This document shows, piece after piece, positions 7,853 to 20,678 of a DNA stretch of 20,678 nt (positions within the stretch are counted from its first letter, which is position 1; every line of letters starts with the position of its first letter). The notes below the pieces were generated by a model that was not told the DNA's origin, did not search any database, and saw only the letters and a program-made list of their open reading frames with translations. The translations under genes were made by a program, and so were the position numbers. The DNA lies in the IMG/VR virus record IMGVR_UViG_3300005264_000209, positions 1-20,678 of that record. The stretch is one strand, 5' to 3'. The DNA is from a virus.

Positions 7853-9358
7853 ATGGCAAAATACAAAAGCTATCCATTCCAATTAAATGATATGACATCA
7901 TGGAATGGTCTCACAAGAGAAACACATTTAGTTAATGCATTCGGAGATGAACCTCAATATTTAGATAAGGTTGTAAGAAATGTTTTTAATGTAAATTACG
8001 GAATGTTATTTGATGAATATTTGAATCAATTTGATACAAAATATGTAGATGAAGATAAGATGTATAAATGGAAATTAAGAGGACGTGATGAACGTAATAT
8101 TCCTTTGTTAGATATTTGGGAAGATGAAAATGGTACTGTAGTAGCAGGAACAACTACTTCTAGAATTGGTATTAATGGACAACGATTTTATATGGATTTT
8201 CCTGAAGATTATTTTTCAGTTACAGCTGTAATTCGTGGAGCAAAAGACTTATATCATTTAAGAGTTATGTCAGATGGTATTGAAATTACTCCTAATCGTT
8301 TTAGATATGAATTTCAATTAGTAACAGGTGATGATAGTTTCTTTATTCCTTTAAATGAAGTTGAGAAAGGTTCTCGATGGGCATTATCTTATGGTTTATC
8401 AGAACGTTATTTATCCAAAGATGGAGCAGATATTTCTTTCAGTTCTCCTTTTACAATGCAGAATCGTATATCTATGTTTAGAATGGAACATACCGTTGCT
8501 GGAGAGATGATTGATAAAGGTAAAAATAAACCTTTATTATTTGGATTTTTAGGTGAAGATAACCAAGTTAGAAAAGCATGGATTCCTGAATTAGATTATA
8601 AATTCATTGCAGATTTTAAAAAACGTAAAAATAGAATGACGTTTTATGGTCAATCTACTTTAAGACAAGATGGTTCTTCTACAATGAAAGGAAGTTCTGG
8701 CAATGTTATTGAAAGCGGTTTAGGTATTAGAGGTCAAATTTCAGCTACTAATAAGTTTGCCTACGATAAATTAACATTTAAACAATTACGTTCTATTCTT
8801 TTAGAAATTTCTATTGGTCGTAAAACAATGGGAGATCGTCATTTTGTAATAGGTACAGGTGAATATGGTCTTGCAATGTTACATGATATGATTTCAGAAC
8901 ATTTATCAGCAAATGACTATAAATGGTTAAATGATACTACTGGGCGAGGATTTAGCTGGACAGATAATGATATTAAAGTTAAATTTGGACAATTCCGAGG
9001 ATTTGCTACAATCAATGGTATTAAAGTATCGTTTATGCATATTGATCATTATGATGATCCAGTTCTTAACATATTACAACATCCAGATGGTGGACCAGCA
9101 GAAAGTCGTAGATTAACTATCATGGATGTTGGTTCAAAAACAGAACCTAATATTCATAAAATTAGAATTAAAAACTTTGAACCTCAATATGCTTATATCC
9201 CTGGTTTAAGAGATCCTTTTGAAAAAGGTGGATTAACTAGAATGAAGAAAGTAGCCTCTAAAGTTGATGGTTATGATATGATGTTAATGGATAAAGAAGG
9301 AGCAGTTGTTGTTGATCCAACAAGAATTGTAGAATTTATCCCTTCAATTATTGTATAA
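7853..9358 (+). CDS. Major capsid protein (HK97-fold candidate)
   Basis: This 501-residue protein is the best candidate for the shell subunit. It follows terminase, portal and scaffold-like genes in the standard order. Its length matches the roughly 500-residue capsid proteins of crAss-like and related Bacteroidota phages. It is a mixed alpha/beta soluble protein with no signal peptide or membrane segment. It also has more CGT arginine codons than its neighbours (eleven by my count), consistent with high expression. It has its own promoter candidate. No N-terminal coiled-coil delta domain or obvious protease cleavage site stands out, so head assembly probably relies on the separate upstream scaffold-like protein. 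I infer the HK97 fold from context and did not see it directly. Confidence 0.75.
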   Translation: MAKYKSYPFQLNDMTSWNGLTRETHLVNAFGDEPQYLDKVVRNVFNVNYGMLFDEYLNQFDTKYVDEDKMYKWKLRGRDERNIPLLDIWEDENGTVVAGTTTSRIGINGQRFYMDFPEDYFSVTAVIRGAKDLYHLRVMSDGIEITPNRFRYEFQLVTGDDSFFIPLNEVEKGSRWALSYGLSERYLSKDGADISFSSPFTMQNRISMFRMEHTVAGEMIDKGKNKPLLFGFLGEDNQVRKAWIPELDYKFIADFKKRKNRMTFYGQSTLRQDGSSTMKGSSGNVIESGLGIRGQISATNKFAYDKLTFKQLRSILLEISIGRKTMGDRHFVIGTGEYGLAMLHDMISEHLSANDYKWLNDTTGRGFSWTDNDIKVKFGQFRGFATINGIKVSFMHIDHYDDPVLNILQHPDGGPAESRRLTIMDVGSKTEPNIHKIRIKNFEPQYAYIPGLRDPFEKGGLTRMKKVASKVDGYDMMLMDKEGAVVVDPTRIVEFIPSIIV

Positions 9359-10232: not shown

Positions 10233-11024
10233 ATGGTAGCAAATAGTATGAGAAATTTATTTAAAGAATTATATGATGGAGCATCAGCTCAAGAGATGGG
10301 GTTTGATGATATTGAAGTAATGAGATTTTTGAATTTATCTCAAGATTTAATAATTAAAGAAAATTTTTATCCTCTTAGAAATAGATTTAAAGAAGGATTT
10401 GAGACATCTTCAAAAAGAGATATGGAATTAAATAATTTAAAACGTTCTGCTACAACATGGTTTAATAAACTAACAAATTATTGGGAAACTATTAATTATA
10501 ATGGTGTACTAGAAAGTAATACAGAAATCATATCAAATGATTTAATAACAAATAATAATTCGGTTATGATTGAATTATTAGAAGAAGTACTGTTATTATT
10601 AGGAAGTGACACTGTTGATATTAAATTAAAAACAGAATTACAAGATAAAAATACTATAAGGAATATTCATGTTAAAAATATAAACGAAGACAATTTAGAT
10701 AATATATTAAAAAATCCTTTTGAAAAACCAGATATTACAGTAATTTATAGAAGTCTTGAAAAAAGAACAGAGGATGATGATCATAAATTTGTAAAATTTT
10801 ATTTACCGGAAGGATATGAATTTATGAGATGGAATTTCTCTTATCTAAAACGTCCAAGAGAAATAGTTGTAGATATATTAGACCCTAGTCAACAAATTAA
10901 TTGTGAATTAGATGAAATTATACACAATGATATTGTATTCAAAGCAGTTGAATTAGCTTTGGGTTCAATAGGATCGCAAAAAACACAAATTGCAATCCAT
11001 AACACAAACACAAAAACTAACTAA
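10233..11024 (+). CDS. Putative head-tail connector (adaptor-like) protein
   Basis: This 263-residue protein has a helical N-terminal region and a C-terminal part (about residues 190-255) that runs from a beta segment through F-S-Y-L-K-R-P-R-E-I-V-V-D. It then reaches C-E-L-D-E-I-I-H with a closing helix. A pattern of this kind, a K-x-P strand then C-E-L and a His before a terminal helix, recurs in connector or ring proteins of Bacteroidota phages as I recall them. Its place shortly after the capsid gene fits an adaptor under the portal. The following gene begins at the base right after its stop codon. The resemblance is from memory of the family, so I hold this at moderate confidence. Confidence 0.45.
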   Translation: MVANSMRNLFKELYDGASAQEMGFDDIEVMRFLNLSQDLIIKENFYPLRNRFKEGFETSSKRDMELNNLKRSATTWFNKLTNYWETINYNGVLESNTEIISNDLITNNNSVMIELLEEVLLLLGSDTVDIKLKTELQDKNTIRNIHVKNINEDNLDNILKNPFEKPDITVIYRSLEKRTEDDDHKFVKFYLPEGYEFMRWNFSYLKRPREIVVDILDPSQQINCELDEIIHNDIVFKAVELALGSIGSQKTQIAIHNTNTKTN

Positions 11025-12287
11025 ATGGCACAATTATCAGCTAATCATGTTACGTATGCTTTTGTAGCAAAAAATATTGCTAGACAGGCCACTACTATTA
11101 CAAACCCTGCTTCTATGACTTATATTAAAGAAGGAGAAGTTGTAGTTTCTGGATTAAATAATAAACTTATTACAGATGCTGCCGAAACTTATACAGGAGT
11201 TAAAAATATTAAAATATCACAATTAAAGAATACAGGACTTTATAGTTCGCCAACTTTAAATTATGATAATATAACTTTTTACAAAGTTACTGCTCATGCA
11301 AGTAAAGTACAAAAAGTAATTTATGTAGGTTTTAACGGAACTTCAGGTTGTTTAGAAAATAATAGTTTCTTAGCAGGACAACAATATGAAATTAGAGTTA
11401 AGAAATTAGATTTAATAGACCACTATGAAGATACTTATAATACGCATAAATTATTCTCATATTATAATGAAAGTGTTAGTACTGCACAATCTACAATTGC
11501 GAGAAAACTTGTTAAAAATGGAGTAAATAATTTTTATAATGATATTGACGGGTTTGTAAAAGTTGAAATGGTTACTAATTCAGCAACGACAGCAGCATCA
11601 GCAGCGGTTGATTTTATTGAAGGAAGTAAAGTAGCTATTGCGGCAGGTACTCATGGTATTGTTGCAGGTAAATTTATTAAAGTTAATACTACAGAAACAT
11701 ATTACGTTACAAGTGTTAATGGAAATAGTATTTATCTAGAGGTGCCTTATCAAGGAACTTCTTGTACATGTACACCTACAATTGTTACAACGGCAACAAT
11801 AGGAGATTGGGGAATTAAACTCTCAGGAAACGAAAAAATATTTGATGCTGAAAATAATAAATTTACATATAATGTAACTGATTTTGATATTGTAATTCCA
11901 GGGTTTACAGATACTCCTATTACTTATGCTTCATATGCTTCATTAGGTAATGGTGAATGGGAAGAAGTTGCCCAAATGGAATGGGAAGTACAAGATTATG
12001 ATGGTCAAACATCACATACAGATCATTTAATGCCAAGTCGTAAACGTTACTTTGAACAAGGAATTGACTATGATATTTTGGTGATTAAAGGATTTGACGA
12101 TAGTACAACCCAAATTTCAGGAACTCCAAAATCATTATTTACTGTTTATGTAGCTATTCCAGTTACAAATACTCAAGGTGATGATTCAGGAGCAAATCCT
12201 ACAAATATGGGAGTAGCAACTGCTTTAGATACATGGTTAACCGCAAACACTTCAACAACTTATACTGAAGCAAGTAACTTAACATAG
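11025..12287 (+). CDS. Major structural protein, tail-tube or capsid-auxiliary candidate
   Basis: This 420-residue protein is Thr/Ser/Ala-rich and mostly beta. The N-terminal 110 residues and the C-terminal 140 residues look like conserved structural parts. The latter has W-G-I-K-L followed by E-W-E-V-Q-D-Y-D-G, a pattern seen in uncharacterised structural proteins of Bacteroidota phages. Between them, at about residues 185-255, lies a small beta insertion ending in the L-E-V-P-Y-Q-G type motif found in phage surface domains, plus C247-T-C249. It is the last gene before a strong terminator, in the unit led by the capsid promoter, so it is probably made in high amounts. A tail tube and a capsid decoration protein are both possible. 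The stop is TAG, the only one among the complete genes here. Confidence 0.5.
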   Translation: MAQLSANHVTYAFVAKNIARQATTITNPASMTYIKEGEVVVSGLNNKLITDAAETYTGVKNIKISQLKNTGLYSSPTLNYDNITFYKVTAHASKVQKVIYVGFNGTSGCLENNSFLAGQQYEIRVKKLDLIDHYEDTYNTHKLFSYYNESVSTAQSTIARKLVKNGVNNFYNDIDGFVKVEMVTNSATTAASAAVDFIEGSKVAIAAGTHGIVAGKFIKVNTTETYYVTSVNGNSIYLEVPYQGTSCTCTPTIVTTATIGDWGIKLSGNEKIFDAENNKFTYNVTDFDIVIPGFTDTPITYASYASLGNGEWEEVAQMEWEVQDYDGQTSHTDHLMPSRKRYFEQGIDYDILVIKGFDDSTTQISGTPKSLFTVYVAIPVTNTQGDDSGANPTNMGVATALDTWLTANTSTTYTEASNLT

Positions 12288-13038: not shown

Positions 13039-14172
13039 ATGTCATTAAACAATAAATATAATCCTTTATTAAAAAGAGGGATTCAAAAAATAAATAATCC
13101 AGATTTAGAAAAATATGATGTCACAGTAGGAACAGATGGAGATTATCCAGCTATTGACGGTATAAGGTTAGCTTTAGAAGACGGAAAAGAGCATTTAAAA
13201 TTAATATCTGATGTTACAGAAACTACTACTTTTTTATTGTCAAGTAATCTATTTATAAATGGACAAAATAAATATAAACTAACATTAGCAAAAGAAGTTA
13301 GTATAAATGCAAGTTCAAATATATTTCAATTAGATGATTTAACTTTTGAGGGAGATGTAACTGATGATTTTGTTATTCAAAGTGGTATAATTCGTATAAA
13401 CAATTGTGAAATTATATATAAGTCTGCAAGAACAACGAGTTCGTCTTATCTTTTTTATACTCCCCGACCTAATTCATTTATTAAAAATAGTAAAATAACT
13501 ATTACAAATGGAGGGAGTATTACAAGAATTGATATGAGGTTTTCTTATGAAAACATTGACTTATATTCTACAGGTAGTGATGTACGAATAGTATTAGGAG
13601 GTATCAGTAATAATGTAACATTTAAAAACATGAGATTCTATGGCAATCTTTATCACGCATTATCCTCAAGCGGAGGTTGTATTTACCATAATCCTTTACA
13701 TCAATTCTATTGCCCAGATGATATTAACTTAAATTTATATAATGAAAATGTTAATGTTATTATACCAAAAGGATTTGTCGTTTCAAATATGAATTTTTCT
13801 TTAAGGTTATTTGAAATTAAATATTTTAGAATGTGTAATCATTCACGTTTTGAAAAAGGAACAGTATTAAATGCTGAATTATGTAATTGGACAAGCGGTG
13901 GTGGTGTTCACGATAATGTTTTTGAACAAGTAACTTTTACAGGAAATATAACAATAAGCGGAGATAACAATTCATTCAAAAATTGTATTTTTGAAAATGA
14001 TGTGACTATAGATGCTGATAATGTAACAATTGAAAATTCTTTTGTTGAAAATGGAACAATTACAGTAAATCCAACAGCTGATAAAACAACATTAATAGGA
14101 AATAGAACATTAACTTCGATAGGTTATGTTGGAAGTACGAATACACAATTAGTAGCAAATAACTTAATATAA
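13039..14172 (+). CDS. Right-handed beta-helix spike or fibre protein
   Basis: This 377-residue protein begins with a short basic segment. It then has V-T-V-G-T-D-G-D-Y-P-A-I-D-G at about 29-42, the usual entry to pectate-lyase-like beta-helix proteins of phages. From about residue 50 to the end, short beta strands with regularly placed Asn, Ile and aromatic residues repeat at intervals near 20 residues (for example I-N-N-C-E-I, F-K-N-C-I-F-E-N, V-T-I-E-N-S-F-V-E-N). This is the stacking pattern of a right-handed parallel beta-helix. Such proteins bind, and sometimes cut, bacterial surface polysaccharide. I cannot identify catalytic acids, so enzymatic action is not shown. It starts 3 bases after the preceding fibre gene. 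Confidence 0.7.
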   Translation: MSLNNKYNPLLKRGIQKINNPDLEKYDVTVGTDGDYPAIDGIRLALEDGKEHLKLISDVTETTTFLLSSNLFINGQNKYKLTLAKEVSINASSNIFQLDDLTFEGDVTDDFVIQSGIIRINNCEIIYKSARTTSSSYLFYTPRPNSFIKNSKITITNGGSITRIDMRFSYENIDLYSTGSDVRIVLGGISNNVTFKNMRFYGNLYHALSSSGGCIYHNPLHQFYCPDDINLNLYNENVNVIIPKGFVVSNMNFSLRLFEIKYFRMCNHSRFEKGTVLNAELCNWTSGGGVHDNVFEQVTFTGNITISGDNNSFKNCIFENDVTIDADNVTIENSFVENGTITVNPTADKTTLIGNRTLTSIGYVGSTNTQLVANNLI

Positions 14173-14183
14173 AACAAAATAAT

Positions 14184-14741
14184 ATGCAATTAAATAATAG
14201 AATAACAGGGCATAAAATATTGTCTAATAAAATAGATATTAATCAAAAAAGAATTGTTTATTCAGAATACGAACAAATAGTATTTGATTCTGATGGAAAC
14301 GAAGTAGTTAAATTTTTAAAAGAACAAAAATCAAAAGTATTCAATGATATTGATTTATCCATATTAGCAGATAATACATTAAGTATCGAAGACAATATTT
14401 TAAAAATTTATTTAACAGCGTTACTCAACACTCTTAAAGATAAAGAGAATTGGGAAATATCGGAAAATAAACAAAATTGGTTGTATCAGGACAGAAATTA
14501 TTGTATTACAATTTTAAATTCTTTCATACTTAAAGAATTACAGCCTATTAATGCAGAAGGTGATTTATCGCCGATAGGAACAATTATTAATAATGAGAGA
14601 ACTAATAATTATGGTTTCTATTCAACTAATGACGGAGATAAAGTAATGACCCTTTATACACCAACTATTAGTCCAGATGACCAACCGATCATACAGCCAT
14701 TTTTGGGTACTAAAATATGGTTGGAAACTAAATTAACATAA
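14184..14741 (+). CDS. Unknown protein within the fibre gene group
   Basis: I do not recognise this 185-residue protein. It appears to have a beta-rich N-terminal third (residues 1-60, with alternating hydrophobic residues around F-D-S-D-G-N-E), a helical middle (about 70-125) and a beta-rich C-terminal end. No membrane segment, signal peptide or catalytic motif is visible. It is placed between the beta-helix protein and the lectin-tipped fibre, with gaps of 11 and 4 bases. Genes of this size among phage fibres are often small fibre subunits, fibre attachment proteins or folding helpers. I cannot choose among these. Confidence 0.6.
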   Translation: MQLNNRITGHKILSNKIDINQKRIVYSEYEQIVFDSDGNEVVKFLKEQKSKVFNDIDLSILADNTLSIEDNILKIYLTALLNTLKDKENWEISENKQNWLYQDRNYCITILNSFILKELQPINAEGDLSPIGTIINNERTNNYGFYSTNDGDKVMTLYTPTISPDDQPIIQPFLGTKIWLETKLT

Positions 14742-14745
14742 TATT

Positions 14746-16272
14746 ATGGGAGAAAAATCAAAAATGCAAGGGGAATTATATTGTGAAGGTAATAAGTATG
14801 TACAACCAATACCATATCCGATAGTTACAACAATCGAGAGGGATAATCTTACGGTTGATAATGGATATAAAATATATAATTCTGATACAGCAACATATCA
14901 AATGTATAATGGTACAACATGGTATGATATATTTGATGATGAATTAGGAATAAAAACCAAAGCATTTAAAGTTAATGTAGATAGTGGGTTATCTGGAGAT
15001 GTAATAGATTTAGATTGTTTAGATAATACTAACTTCTTTGATATTTACCTTGATAGACCTATGACAAGAATAAATATGCCTACAAATGTAGTTAATGGTC
15101 AATCATATAAAGTACAAATACGTCAAGATGGAGTCGGCGGTAGATTTGTAAGATGGGGTAATAAAGATACATTTAAATATTTAGAAGTATCAATTTATCA
15201 AAGTGGTGGAGAAATAGAACTTTACATAAAAGATGGAACTTTTGATTGGAGTGTTTTGAGAGCGGATGCTGGTAGAAAATCATTTATTAATTTAGATGGC
15301 TTTGCCTATGAGAATAATAATTTAGCAGGATTAAAAGTTAAAAGTTTTGATGAAAGCTCTAACCTTATCACTTGCTATTCACCTAATTGGGAAATATATG
15401 ATGATGAAAATGTAATTGATGTTACAATAGAAGTTGAAAATGCCTTCTATTTCATTGATGAAAAGGGTGATGATTGGATAGGACAATTCCCTTATGGTGT
15501 TACAATGTTCCAATTCTATTCTACTAATGATGGTAATAGTGCTATGTTAGAAAAAATAGGAGTTTTCTCAAATTCATTATATACACAAGCAAAAGTAAAA
15601 TTTGAAGAAACATTAACAGATGATTTTATAAACGGTAGTGATGACGGTTTACTTAATTGGAGAGAGGGTAATGCTAATGGAACAACAGTTTCATCAAGTG
15701 CTGATGTTGATGGTGAACATCCAGGTTTATTAATTCAAAGGTTGAATGGTGGTGCAACAGCAGATGGTAGAACATCAACTACAATGGGTACTGATATGTT
15801 TAACATATCAAATAAACGAATTATAATTGAAGGTGTTGTTAAACCAAATGGAAACGCATTCTCAACAGCAGATGTAAACTATTACTTTGGTTGGGTAGAT
15901 AATGTTCAATTCCATCAATCAAACAATAGTGTATATTTTCAATTAATTGCTGAGGGAAGCGAAAAAGGTAGAGTTCATTGTATAACTAAGAATGCTGGTA
16001 CAACAACTGATTACGATACAGGCATTGATTTTTTAGAAGATGAATGGCATTCGTTAAAAATAGGATTACCACCAAATGGTTTAGGTATCCATTTCATTGT
16101 TGATAATATACTTGTACACACAGCAAATAGAGCAACATTCAGTGAAAATGAAAAAGTAACTTGTGGTTTTGGGCAATATTATGATTTTACAGGAACATCT
16201 CTACCACATAATAAAGATTGGTTTATTGATGTATTTTCATTAAAATATCGAATGAATAATAATAGAATATAA
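14746..16272 (+). CDS. Tail fibre with C-terminal lectin-like domain
   Basis: This 508-residue protein is modular. Residues 20-62 hold the fibre motif in which an E-R-D-N-L region leads to Y-K-I-Y-N-S-D-T and then Y-N-G-T-T-W. Residues about 82-170 hold a beta domain with the signature R-Q-D-G-V-G-G-R-F-V-R-W-G, which is widespread in phage fibre and baseplate-peripheral proteins. From about residue 288, D-D-F-I-N-G ... L-L-N-W starts a concanavalin A/LamG-like beta-sandwich that runs to the C-terminus with E-W-H-S-L-K-I near its end. That fold commonly binds glycans. It is the strongest receptor-binding candidate in the window. The middle section (about 180-285) is beta-rich and I do not recognise it. 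Confidence 0.75.
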   Translation: MGEKSKMQGELYCEGNKYVQPIPYPIVTTIERDNLTVDNGYKIYNSDTATYQMYNGTTWYDIFDDELGIKTKAFKVNVDSGLSGDVIDLDCLDNTNFFDIYLDRPMTRINMPTNVVNGQSYKVQIRQDGVGGRFVRWGNKDTFKYLEVSIYQSGGEIELYIKDGTFDWSVLRADAGRKSFINLDGFAYENNNLAGLKVKSFDESSNLITCYSPNWEIYDDENVIDVTIEVENAFYFIDEKGDDWIGQFPYGVTMFQFYSTNDGNSAMLEKIGVFSNSLYTQAKVKFEETLTDDFINGSDDGLLNWREGNANGTTVSSSADVDGEHPGLLIQRLNGGATADGRTSTTMGTDMFNISNKRIIIEGVVKPNGNAFSTADVNYYFGWVDNVQFHQSNNSVYFQLIAEGSEKGRVHCITKNAGTTTDYDTGIDFLEDEWHSLKIGLPPNGLGIHFIVDNILVHTANRATFSENEKVTCGFGQYYDFTGTSLPHNKDWFIDVFSLKYRMNNNRI

Positions 16273-16955: not shown

Positions 16956-17861
16956 ATGGCTAAAGGATTTAAATTAGGATTAATTCAAAATAGATATACT
17001 GATTGGATTGTATATGATGCAACTAATAGGTGTGACGGTAATACAAGACCATTAATAGAGGATTTAATAGAGATCAGGATTACATTTTCTGGACCAGAAT
17101 TAAATCATAATAAAACTTATATTTTTGATGATAGTAAAAAAGCAAAGATAACTGCCTATGGAACATTTGATGGTTTAGATTGTACTCAATATCTTAACAC
17201 TAAAAATTTATCTTTAGAGGTTAATAAAGTACAACATAATGCTGAATTTAAAAATATTTATCCAGATACTGACGCAATGGTAGATGCTTTAAATGTAGAA
17301 TTTTCTTCTCTTGAAATATTATTTATAAATAATGGAGATTATATCAGTGCAGAAACAACTACAACTGGAAGTAATGTTTATATAAAAGTAATAGAGGGGT
17401 CGTTATTAGATTCTATTAAATGGAATATTGGGGTACATAGAGGAAATAATTTTTTATGGAATACTCCAAATGTATTACAAAAAGATTTAAATTTTATGAT
17501 AAGCAGGGAAGACTTTGGTTATGAAACTTTAGAGGTACCTGAAAGTTATTGGAATATTCATGGTAAAATAGTATTCTCTACTGAGGAAAATAATATATTA
17601 GATGATTTTACAGAATTTTCTTATAAACAGACTGAAATATATAGAGCTAAAATATTTGAATATTTAGCTAATAATTTTACAGAATTTAATAAAATTGAGC
17701 AACGATGGCAAACAGATATGGAATTGTTTATGCAACGTAATATATATTTTGACGCTTTATATAAATCTTTTTTAGCATCAATAGAAATTGGTAATACTGA
17801 TAGAGCCTATGAATTATTAAATATAATTATAGATTATAAATCATTAAATCCAATAATATGA
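16956..17861 (+). CDS. Unknown virion-region protein with beta N-terminus and helical C-terminus
   Basis: I do not recognise this 301-residue protein. Residues 1-165 look beta-rich, with possible beta-sandwich domains around residues 1-95 and 100-165. From about 215 onwards the chain becomes helical (with F-L-A-S-I-E-I-G-N and the final Y-E-L-L-N-I-I-I-D segment). It has no signal peptide or membrane segment. The stop TGA overlaps the next ATG in an ATGA junction (17858-17861), a standard sign of coupled translation, so the product may act with the 91-residue protein encoded next. Its place between a membrane-anchored protein and a large fibre suggests a virion part, possibly a fibre or baseplate connector. 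That is inference only. Confidence 0.6.
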   Translation: MAKGFKLGLIQNRYTDWIVYDATNRCDGNTRPLIEDLIEIRITFSGPELNHNKTYIFDDSKKAKITAYGTFDGLDCTQYLNTKNLSLEVNKVQHNAEFKNIYPDTDAMVDALNVEFSSLEILFINNGDYISAETTTTGSNVYIKVIEGSLLDSIKWNIGVHRGNNFLWNTPNVLQKDLNFMISREDFGYETLEVPESYWNIHGKIVFSTEENNILDDFTEFSYKQTEIYRAKIFEYLANNFTEFNKIEQRWQTDMELFMQRNIYFDALYKSFLASIEIGNTDRAYELLNIIIDYKSLNPII

Positions 17862-18133
17862 CAAGTCCTTTTTTAATAAATTATGATAAGACTAATTTAA
17901 CAAATGATATTAGTAGTTTTGTATTAAAACAATATAATAATATACAAGATGGTGATTGGAAAAGAAAACAATTTAATTATCAAATGTGGTTCTTATCTGA
18001 AGGATTAGATTTATTATTAGAATATGATTTTTATAATAAAGATATGAATTTACTAGAAGATAATAATTATCAAAATATATTAAACACAATAACAAAAATT
18101 ATTAACAAAGAATATTATGGCTTTAATAAATAA
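17858..18133 (+). CDS. Small unknown protein, translationally coupled on both sides
   Basis: This 91-residue protein is rich in Asn, Tyr, Asp and aromatic residues, with helical segments at about residues 15-30 and 38-58. I do not recognise it. It starts inside the stop of the preceding gene (ATGA) and overlaps the following fibre gene by 17 bases, so all three genes are probably translated as a coupled set. Being small and placed directly before a large fibre, it could be a fibre chaperone or an attachment subunit. No motif supports a specific choice. The overlaps and the unbroken frame support it as a real gene. Confidence 0.6.
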   Translation: MTSPFLINYDKTNLTNDISSFVLKQYNNIQDGDWKRKQFNYQMWFLSEGLDLLLEYDFYNKDMNLLEDNNYQNILNTITKIINKEYYGFNK

Positions 18134-20222
18134 CAAAAATCCATTTGATCCACATATATCATCAAGAAGATTAAATGAAGATATTAATTTTCAATTTGAT
18201 AGAGGATGGTCTCCAATATTAGGTACCGTTCTTGTTGGAGATAAAGTTCATTTAGTACTAAGAGATTGGCAAGGAGGAGAAGGGGAAAAACCTTTTGATC
18301 CAAGTGTAGGAGGACCTTATTATATAGGTGATGCTGGTTATGTAATAGATATTAATTTAGCAGTTAATATAGCAGAACATTTTTTAACAGATGATAATTT
18401 AGAAGATTTAATTGATGTTAGTTCAATGACATTTGATTTTATAACTGCTGGAGATGGTATTACAAAACAATTGAGATTAGAATATAATACTAGAGATACC
18501 ACTCCGTCAATACCTGTTGTACATACATTTAATGCGAACATATTAACTAATAGTAATACACTAATAGATTATATATCAGAAAATGGTAGTGATGATGTTG
18601 GTAGCACAGTATTAGCTATCTCTAAGGCATTATATAGTCTTAGAAATTGGTTAATAATAGATGATTCTTCTCCTGTAGAACCTTGGGAAACTGAACAAGG
18701 AATGTCACAAAATGCGATAATGACCGCAATAAATGATGCTAAGGCTCAATTCGACGTACCTATATTAAATTTAGATATTGATTTGATAACTGAAATAGAA
18801 CAAACTTCTAATATAACAGAATATAATCCTTATTATTTAATTGTTAGAGAAGATGAAAGGACAGATGGAAGACATACTTCAATTTGTACAATAACATGTG
18901 TTCAACAATGTTGTGATTTAAATACAGATGGAGGTTATGAGGAAAGAGGTAATAGAGACGGAATTACAGGATGTAGATGTGATGCAGGGATAGAGGAAGT
19001 ACTAGCAGAATGTTTAATTACAGTTGTAAATGCAGGAGTAGATGGGGATCGACATGAAATATGGTTAAATGATGAATTTTATGCAGCTTATGATGTAGTA
19101 GCTGGTGATACAACCTCTGAAGTTGTAATAGGATTAATAAATAATATTGGTTCTTCTTGTGGAGACGTAGGATGTACTGTTTTAAATCAAACATCAAATT
19201 CTTTTGTGTTACGAGCACCTATAGGTTCTGGAAGTGATCCTAATAGTTGGAATAAATTTACTGTAACAACTGGAAGTGCACAACTTACTATAGATCAATT
19301 AGTAATAGGAGTAGATTATCTACCAGCTACATATAGAGGTGTTAGACATCATTTAATAGCATATGATGGTAATGAATGGTATGATTTTGGACCAACATTA
19401 GCATTTGGTAATAATAATGAAGATCCTGAGAGTTGTATTTGTACATTTTTATCACAAACAGATACTCCTAATTCATATGTTGGATTTGCAGGTTATGTAC
19501 CTATTGTAAATACATTAATGGATGCATTAGAATTTATAGATTTTACATTTTTAAATTTACACGATACTCCTACAACTTATACAATCAATCATCGAGTTAA
19601 AGTTGATCCTACAGGAAATTCATTAATATTTGTTGATGATAGTATTGTTGAATTAAATGATGTTGATGATGTACTTGTATCAAATACAAGACTTAAGGTA
19701 AATAACGCAGGAACTCTTGTAGAATTTATCAACGATACATTTTTAGAATTAAATGATGTTGTAGATACATCATATACAGGAAATGCTACATTTGTACCTA
19801 GTGTAAATACATTAGAAGATGGACTAGAATTTGTTGATCCACAAAGTTTAGTTAATAACACATTTATAGGATTAACGGATACTCCATCAACATATGTTGA
19901 AGGTACAGGTACAACAGATCCTTTAAATCCGATGATTGTTATAAATACAACTAATGATGGACTTATATTTGCACCAACTCCTACTAAAGTAGAAAATAAT
20001 AATGTTATATTAAATGAAGATACTTATATATTACAACCTCAACATTTTAAATTTGAAGATGATACAGAAGATACAACAGGATGGGGAATAGAACATGCAG
20101 GAAGAATGAGGTTTATAAGAGTCGATCATGGTGCATACGAAACACAGTCTTTACAAGTATGGAGTATTGATAATAATGGAGTATATGGTTGGCAAAATGC
20201 ATATCATGCTACAACTATTTAA
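18117..20222 (+). CDS. Large modular tail fibre with Cys-rich segment and DTPxxY repeats
   Basis: This 701-residue protein has an N-terminal region (1-200) that may mount it on the virion. Residues 257-299 are Cys-rich: C257, C261, C265, C266, C286, C288 and C299. Four further Cys follow at 348, 353, 440 and 442. From residue 444 to about 593, related segments repeat: F-L-S-Q-T-D-T-P-N-S-Y at 444, F-L-N-L-H-D-T-P-T-T-Y at 478, I-V-E-L-N-D-V at 510, F-L-E-L-N-D-V at 542 and F-I-G-L-T-D-T-P-S-T-Y at 583, spaced 32-41 residues apart. The F-L-x-L-x-D-T-P-x-x-Y motif is common in phage fibres and probably marks shaft repeats. The C-terminal 100 residues may form the tip. The gene overlaps its upstream neighbour by 17 bases. 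Confidence 0.7.
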   Translation: MALINNKNPFDPHISSRRLNEDINFQFDRGWSPILGTVLVGDKVHLVLRDWQGGEGEKPFDPSVGGPYYIGDAGYVIDINLAVNIAEHFLTDDNLEDLIDVSSMTFDFITAGDGITKQLRLEYNTRDTTPSIPVVHTFNANILTNSNTLIDYISENGSDDVGSTVLAISKALYSLRNWLIIDDSSPVEPWETEQGMSQNAIMTAINDAKAQFDVPILNLDIDLITEIEQTSNITEYNPYYLIVREDERTDGRHTSICTITCVQQCCDLNTDGGYEERGNRDGITGCRCDAGIEEVLAECLITVVNAGVDGDRHEIWLNDEFYAAYDVVAGDTTSEVVIGLINNIGSSCGDVGCTVLNQTSNSFVLRAPIGSGSDPNSWNKFTVTTGSAQLTIDQLVIGVDYLPATYRGVRHHLIAYDGNEWYDFGPTLAFGNNNEDPESCICTFLSQTDTPNSYVGFAGYVPIVNTLMDALEFIDFTFLNLHDTPTTYTINHRVKVDPTGNSLIFVDDSIVELNDVDDVLVSNTRLKVNNAGTLVEFINDTFLELNDVVDTSYTGNATFVPSVNTLEDGLEFVDPQSLVNNTFIGLTDTPSTYVEGTGTTDPLNPMIVINTTNDGLIFAPTPTKVENNNVILNEDTYILQPQHFKFEDDTEDTTGWGIEHAGRMRFIRVDHGAYETQSLQVWSIDNNGVYGWQNAYHATTI

Positions 20223-20234
20223 ACTAAAAAAATT

Positions 20235-20678
20235 ATGAAATTACCAGAATTAATACAAAATATTAAATCTATTTTATATACAAATAAAATACCAGCAACT
20301 AACAAAATAGATAACAGACAAATTATATATTGGATAAATGAACAAAGAGCATTGTGGTTAAAAAGAGAATATAATCAAATTAGACCTCCTCAGCACAATG
20401 AATTACAAAGTTTATATAATATAGAGATGGAGGTAATAGACAATGAAAATACATTAGGTATTGTTAATAAAACTCTATTAAGAAGTAAAAAAACAATACC
20501 TAGAACAATACAATATAATCTTTCAGATGGTATCCGATATGTTTCGGGTACCAAATTGTTATCTAATAAATTAAATTATGTTAGTAAAAATGATATGTTA
20601 TATAAAGGTAATGGTATATTTAATAGAAAAAGAATATATGCTTTTAAAGATAATGATTATCTATATATAAAATATGGG
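20235..20678 (+). CDS. Putative head-tail connector/ring protein, cut by window edge
   Basis: The reading frame opens with ATG at 20235, 12 bases after the preceding stop, and stays open for 148 codons to the window end, so the C-terminus is missing. Residues 27-44 read N-R-Q-I-I-Y-W-I-N-E-Q-R-A-L-W-L-K-R, then E-M-E-V-I-D (64-69) and L-R-S-K-K-T-I-P-R (82-90). This order (R-x-I ... I-x-x-x-R-A ... E-x-E-V-x-D ... K-x-I-P-R) matches connector or ring-type structural proteins of crAss-like and other Bacteroidota phages as I recall them. Such proteins sit between portal and tail. It is a second connector-like gene, far from the one at 10233. A 9-bp stem candidate lies inside at 20529-20552. Confidence 0.6.
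   Translation, partial: MKLPELIQNIKSILYTNKIPATNKIDNRQIIYWINEQRALWLKREYNQIRPPQHNELQSLYNIEMEVIDNENTLGIVNKTLLRSKKTIPRTIQYNLSDGIRYVSGTKLLSNKLNYVSKNDMLYKGNGIFNRKRIYAFKDNDYLYIKYG

Follow-up and report, generated by a model that had tools for sequence, protein, structure and literature searches.

The probable tail fibre of a divergent crAss-like phage carries seven Cys within 43 residues, a cluster that is real and locally unusual and that lies within an otherwise recognisable crAss-like tail fibre. By analogy with the tail of phi-crAss001, we tentatively read the cluster as a structural cross-linking of the fibre through disulfides, with a probability of roughly 0.4. The features of the window (the whole stretch of DNA analysed, 20,678 bases) that bear on this reading are as follows.

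1-20678: sequenced stretch, 20,678 bases, from a virus record
7853-9358, + strand: major capsid protein (PF23898, 1.4e-98)
10233-11024: ring 3/4 protein (PF25710, 2.5e-13)
16956-17861, + strand: ORF at the tail hub protein A place, assigned by position alone
17858-18133, + strand: 91-aa ORF at the tail hub protein B place, assigned by position alone
18117-20222, + strand: probable tail-fibre protein, 701 aa, 11 Cys (phrog_11660 tail protein, 6.6e-16; tblastn)
18180-18371, + strand: N-terminal W-x-GG-x-G ... YIG-x2-G module, residues 22-85 (phrog_33244, L016 ORFs)
18885-19013, + strand: cluster of seven Cys, residues 257-299 (translation)
19158-19175, + strand: pair C348/C353, C-x4-C (translation)
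19434-19442, + strand: pair C440/C442, C-x-C, immediately ahead of the repeats (translation)
19443-19976, + strand: L-x-DTP-type repeat region, residues 443-620 (phrog_11660, 6.6e-16; tblastn)
20235-20678, + strand: ring protein 2 (R2), cut by the window end (PF25702 CrAss_Ring_2, 3.8e-14)

The window comes from a crAss-like phage

The window encodes a crAss-type major capsid protein together with ring proteins (PF23898, PF25710 and PF25702), and the capsid protein puts the phage among the crAss-like phages. Judged by these profile matches, the window covers part of the genome of a divergent crAss-like phage (order Crassvirales). The capsid protein was 31.0-32.7% identical to those of named phages (25 listed of 114 matching records). 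A related capsid protein was present in 114 phage records, which by name included 30 Bacteroides, 29 Flavobacterium and 2 Cellulophaga phages. By these names the mostly anaerobic host group of the initial annotation is only partly borne out, and the host is not certainly anaerobic.

The nearest contigs by capsid protein were L002 and the contig of L005 and L006, at 77% and 74% identity. Both came from metagenome 3300033146 and both stop short of the fibre gene. Among the scans made, of which the broad capsid scan covered the best 80 of 258 matches, these two contigs were the only close capsid relatives (74-77%). Searches anchored on ring 2, the ring 3/4 protein or the ORF at 11025-12287 found no contig spanning the fibre gene.

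The Cys-bearing ORF is a probable modular tail fibre

The ORF at 18117-20222 is probably, from the modules recognised in it, the modular tail fibre of this phage. Fibre modules were detected by profile matches to phrog_11660 (6.6e-16) and to the tail fiber protein family phrog_33244 (0.007 with the whole fibre and 0.00099 with the first 100 residues only), and by tblastn, in which the ORF matched 49 phage records at E <=1e-3 with annotated tail proteins among the matches. The N-terminal module, which recurs in fibres of several phages, gave weak tblastn matches (best E 0.04) and was 36% and 35% identical to two fibre ORFs of the crAss-like locus L016 over their first part. The N-terminal module, the repeat module and the position beside ring 2 bear out the initial description of the protein as a phage fibre.

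Residues 100-440 were without a solid match in PHROGs or Pfam. Residues 101-235 and 236-308 did not match either collection, and residues 291-401 reached 0.037 in PHROGs (unknown function) and 0.16 in Pfam, below the Pfam cut-off. The sequence PYYLIVREDERTDG precedes the cluster and YDGNEWYDFG stands past residue 412; in a marine virus, YDGTTW immediately precedes the repeats. From their sequences, PYYLIVREDERTDG and YDGNEWYDFG look like a single short fibre module split in two. This split, together with the marine YDGTTW, suggests that the cluster and the next hundred residues are an insert in the fibre.

The Cys clustering exceeds chance and the crAss-like comparison set

The 11 Cys of the fibre are at residues 257, 261, 265, 266, 286, 288, 299, 348, 353, 440 and 442. 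The cluster has the layout C-x3-C-x3-C-C-x19-C-x-C-x10-C and is followed further on by C-x4-C and C-x-C. On translation, the Cys positions, their layout and the coordinates 18885-19013 given in the initial annotation were all exact, and its wording of eleven clustered Cys was a slight overstatement, as seven are clustered and the other four form two separate pairs.

All 11 Cys codons of the fibre ORF were TGT, and over 17 window ORFs Cys was encoded by 32 TGT and 2 TGC codons. GC3 of residues 251-300 was 0.08, with the other 50-codon blocks of the fibre gene at 0.04-0.16. As GC3 of this block matches the rest of the gene, the Cys block does not have the look of a recent acquisition. Two sources of the cluster were set aside, a frameshift in view of the open frame and foreign DNA in view of the similar GC3 along the gene.

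The rate at which shuffles of the fibre protein (20,000 trials) packed at least seven Cys into 43 residues was 5e-5, and placing 11 Cys randomly in 701 positions did so in 16 of 200,000 trials. The cluster was also compared to ATG-started ORFs of at least 300 aa from 83 crAss-like loci (L002-L084), taken from the region downstream of the capsid gene. Two of these loci are from named phages and two are from one contig. This gave 146 ORFs, fibres and non-fibres alike, which were reduced to 106 at 70% identity. The maximum number of Cys per 43 residues was five in one ORF, four in three ORFs and three or fewer in the other 102. The Cys fraction of the window fibre (1.57%) was equalled or exceeded in 7 of the 106 ORFs. 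By these counts the Cys content is ordinary for the group and the Cys clustering is not, and with seven Cys in 43 residues against a maximum of five the initial view of the clustering as unusual was upheld.

Among the 106 ORFs the closest to the window cluster was an 845-aa ORF of L062 (15509-18043), whose 12 Cys include five in the 43 residues starting at residue 354; no sequence similarity between the two was seen. A high Cys content is not in itself unusual among crAss-like phages: in phi-crAss001, gp22, gp25 and gp26 (782-850 aa) have 10 Cys each, and the 215-aa tail hub protein gp38 has 11.

The Cys segment has no recognised relatives

The whole fibre had no homologue in IMG/VR or in GTDB genomes in scans that need exact 8-residue peptides and reach close relatives only. 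Against phage records, a 158-aa piece with the cluster gave chance-level matches alone (best E 0.2), and within residues 1-256 the N-terminal module alone was matched. The exact seven-Cys DNA pattern gave 23 in-frame matches among 120 IMG/VR stretches listed, and these 23, inspected by eye, were Cys-rich low-complexity or wrong-frame sequence. None of the loci listed for this pattern matched residues 1-440 (tblastn, E <=5). The pattern C-x3-C-x3-CC-D gave 83 in-frame matches among 120 stretches listed, six of which were in open frames of at least 120 residues. None of these six, among those listed, carried the tested fibre motifs, and by tblastn (E <=0.1) the listed stretches did not match the fibre. 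AlphaFold predictions from the single sequence were too poor for use, both for the whole fibre (mean pLDDT 32) and for residues 231-401 (pLDDT 44).

The initial annotation had counted homologues that keep the fold but lack the Cys as a point against its metal or disulfide reading. Relatives that bear on this were available for the last pair only, in three repeat-sharing phages and at the positions covered. The positions aligned to C440 and C442 are not Cys in L085 and L086, and the position aligned to C442 is not Cys in L087, whose alignment covers C442 and not C440.

These results bear on the possibility that the Cys have no joint role and are free thiols in a fast-changing, little-constrained segment of the fibre. 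Phage fibres change fast, no relatives are known for the segment, C440 and C442 are not common to the repeat relatives where covered, and the total Cys content is ordinary for the crAss-like group, all of which would fit such a segment. We nevertheless consider this possible but somewhat unlikely, as random placement rarely gives the clustering (16 of 200,000 trials) and the clustering exceeds that of all 106 comparison ORFs.

The fibre gene stands beside ring 2

In both cr112_1 and phi-crAss001, the genes for tail hub A and tail hub B, in that order, precede ring 2 (named as in the accessible text of PMC10172136). In the window, the fibre gene stands between two hub-position ORFs and ring 2, with ring 2 directly downstream. 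The ORFs at 16956-17861 and 17858-18133 are named hub A and hub B by position only, and neither had a profile match to crAss hub proteins. A ten-sequence hub A profile (hmmsearch) matched 38 of 84 sources, partial ORFs included, and the window was not among them. By hhalign the ORF at the hub A place scored a probability of 0.2%, and gp38 was absent from its PDB matches. The 91-aa ORF had no PF25711 match and no useful PDB match.

The ORF at the hub A place has two Cys. Other crAss-like phages have Cys-rich probable hub A proteins, and an alignment of ten shows three invariant Cys columns and a further six that are nearly invariant. In many contigs the probable hub A has a Cys-rich C-terminal tail with C-x2-C pairs (among them L072 14201-14842, L064 14247-14822 and L053 14272-14862). 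The hub A proteins of the other loci are tied to gp38 via the cr112_1 member (2.1e-25), which is 17% identical to the first row of the alignment, and the L072 member alone had no match in solved structures. Residues 55-131 of the window ORF at 16956-17861 weakly matched proliferating cell nuclear antigen (PCNA) chains, with E of about 0.2 for single copies and 3e-6 only against one 798-aa chain with three matched stretches. This is probably chance or a common sheet pattern.

Disulfide bracing is the favored explanation of the cluster

In the tail of phi-crAss001, disulfides are reported to join the hub proteins to one another and to the rings, to link R1 with R2 and to occur inside the gp57 dimer, and the tail fibre gp22 of this phage has its N-terminus docked in the hub (accessible text of PMC10172136). 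With these disulfides in the phi-crAss001 tail, disulfide bracing is the most natural reading of a Cys cluster in a crAss-like tail. We infer a fibre trimer in which residues 257-299 and the pair 348/353 would form a lineage-specific insert, placed at a joint between the fibre module and the shaft of L-x-DTP repeats. The cluster Cys would pair as disulfides, either intra-chain or between chains of the trimer. Pairing would occur after the virion exits the reducing cytoplasm, and the disulfides would lock the joint of the fibre.

Several observations are consistent with bracing. The clustering is greater than expected by chance and greater than in the 106 long crAss-like ORFs, and fibre modules flank the cluster on both sides. 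The fibre gene precedes ring 2, the place of the fibre-docking hub genes in cr112_1 and phi-crAss001, Cys are present at the N-termini of other crAss-like fibre ORFs (L016, L008), and the fibre has no C-x2-C metal knuckle. Other observations speak against it. As 11 is an odd number and residues 265 and 266 are adjacent, intra-chain pairing of every Cys is impossible, and the counterparts of C440 and C442, where covered, are not Cys. The first 256 residues of the fibre hold zero Cys, and this, together with the odd number, the adjacent pair and the two-Cys ORF at the hub A place, suggests that the phi-crAss001 scheme is not simply copied here.

The cluster could instead bind a metal, either zinc or an iron-sulfur cluster, as in gpL of phage lambda, where Cys173, 182, 205 and 212 surround a modelled iron-sulfur cluster (accessible text of PMC10721106). 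The close proximity of seven Cys and this precedent from a phage tail would suit a metal site, but there is not one C-x2-C in the 701 fibre residues, the Cys spacings differ from the 173/182/205/212 of gpL, and the whole fibre was without a match in Pfam (E <=1), NCBIfam or PDB sequences, with none of note for its pieces, making metal binding unlikely. A zinc ribbon or ferredoxin, with C-x2-C knuckles, was rejected as the fibre lacks this motif.

H-x-H iron sites occur in trimeric phage fibres and spikes. In a sulfur counterpart of these, both C-x-C motifs (286/288, 440/442) would lie close to the threefold axis of the fibre trimer, as would the CC at 265/266. With three chains, each site would have six thiols, and axial metal ions or axial inter-chain disulfides would hold the fibre. 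We regard this arrangement as a long shot. The first six Cys of the cluster are in the order C, C, CC, C, C, which is also that of inhibitor cystine knots and might point to a small cystine-knot-like domain. Usual cystine knots are poorly fitted by a 19-residue loop after the CC and a one-residue loop between the last two Cys, and with residues 236-308 matching neither Pfam nor PHROGs we hold such a domain to be very improbable.

Should the cluster prove to be a disulfide brace or a metal site, disulfide bracing of the phi-crAss001 type would widen from the hub and rings to the fibre shaft, and redox-sensitive chemistry would sit in the receptor-binding arm. If it is neither, it would be of small interest, a Cys-rich orphan in a single fibre of a single metagenomic phage.

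Comparison with known systems

The L-x-DTP repeat region is common to Caulobacter phages (phiCbK and relatives), Brevundimonas phages, Sinorhizobium phage Phosso and marine virus AG-345-F15, whose tail proteins were 27-39% identical to the window fibre in this region over the 49 listed records. These proteins align from residue 346 onward and never cover the cluster, and in the three examined the counterparts of C440 and C442 (in one, of C442 only) are not Cys. The crAss-like L016 fibre ORFs (14158-15207 and 15226-16227) share the N-terminal module at 36% and 35% identity, but have Cys at the extreme N-terminus (MACTDC and MCTNC), which is Cys-free in the window fibre, and no cluster like that at 257-299. 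A crAss-like fibre ORF of L008 (15569-16243) also has a Cys-rich N-terminus, MSTGCSGCNDGC. The Cys-rich N-termini of the L016 and L008 fibre ORFs perhaps dock to the Cys-rich hub.

Like the window fibre, phage lambda gpL is an outer tail part with several Cys (accessible text of PMC10721106), but it is another type of protein with other Cys spacing and no sequence match to the window fibre.

The crAss-like phage phi-crAss001 has tail parts with raised Cys, as in the window fibre, in gp22 (10 Cys in 832 aa) and in gp38/gp39 (gp38, chain 7qoj_G, 11 Cys in 215 aa). The Cys of gp22 are spread out, whereas those of the window fibre are clustered, and the window fibre has no sequence match to solved structures. 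The accessible text of PMC10172136 reports disulfides of the phi-crAss001 hub and rings and does not report one in the fibre shaft. By this analogy the cluster, unusual in detail, would fit a phage group known for a disulfide-braced tail.
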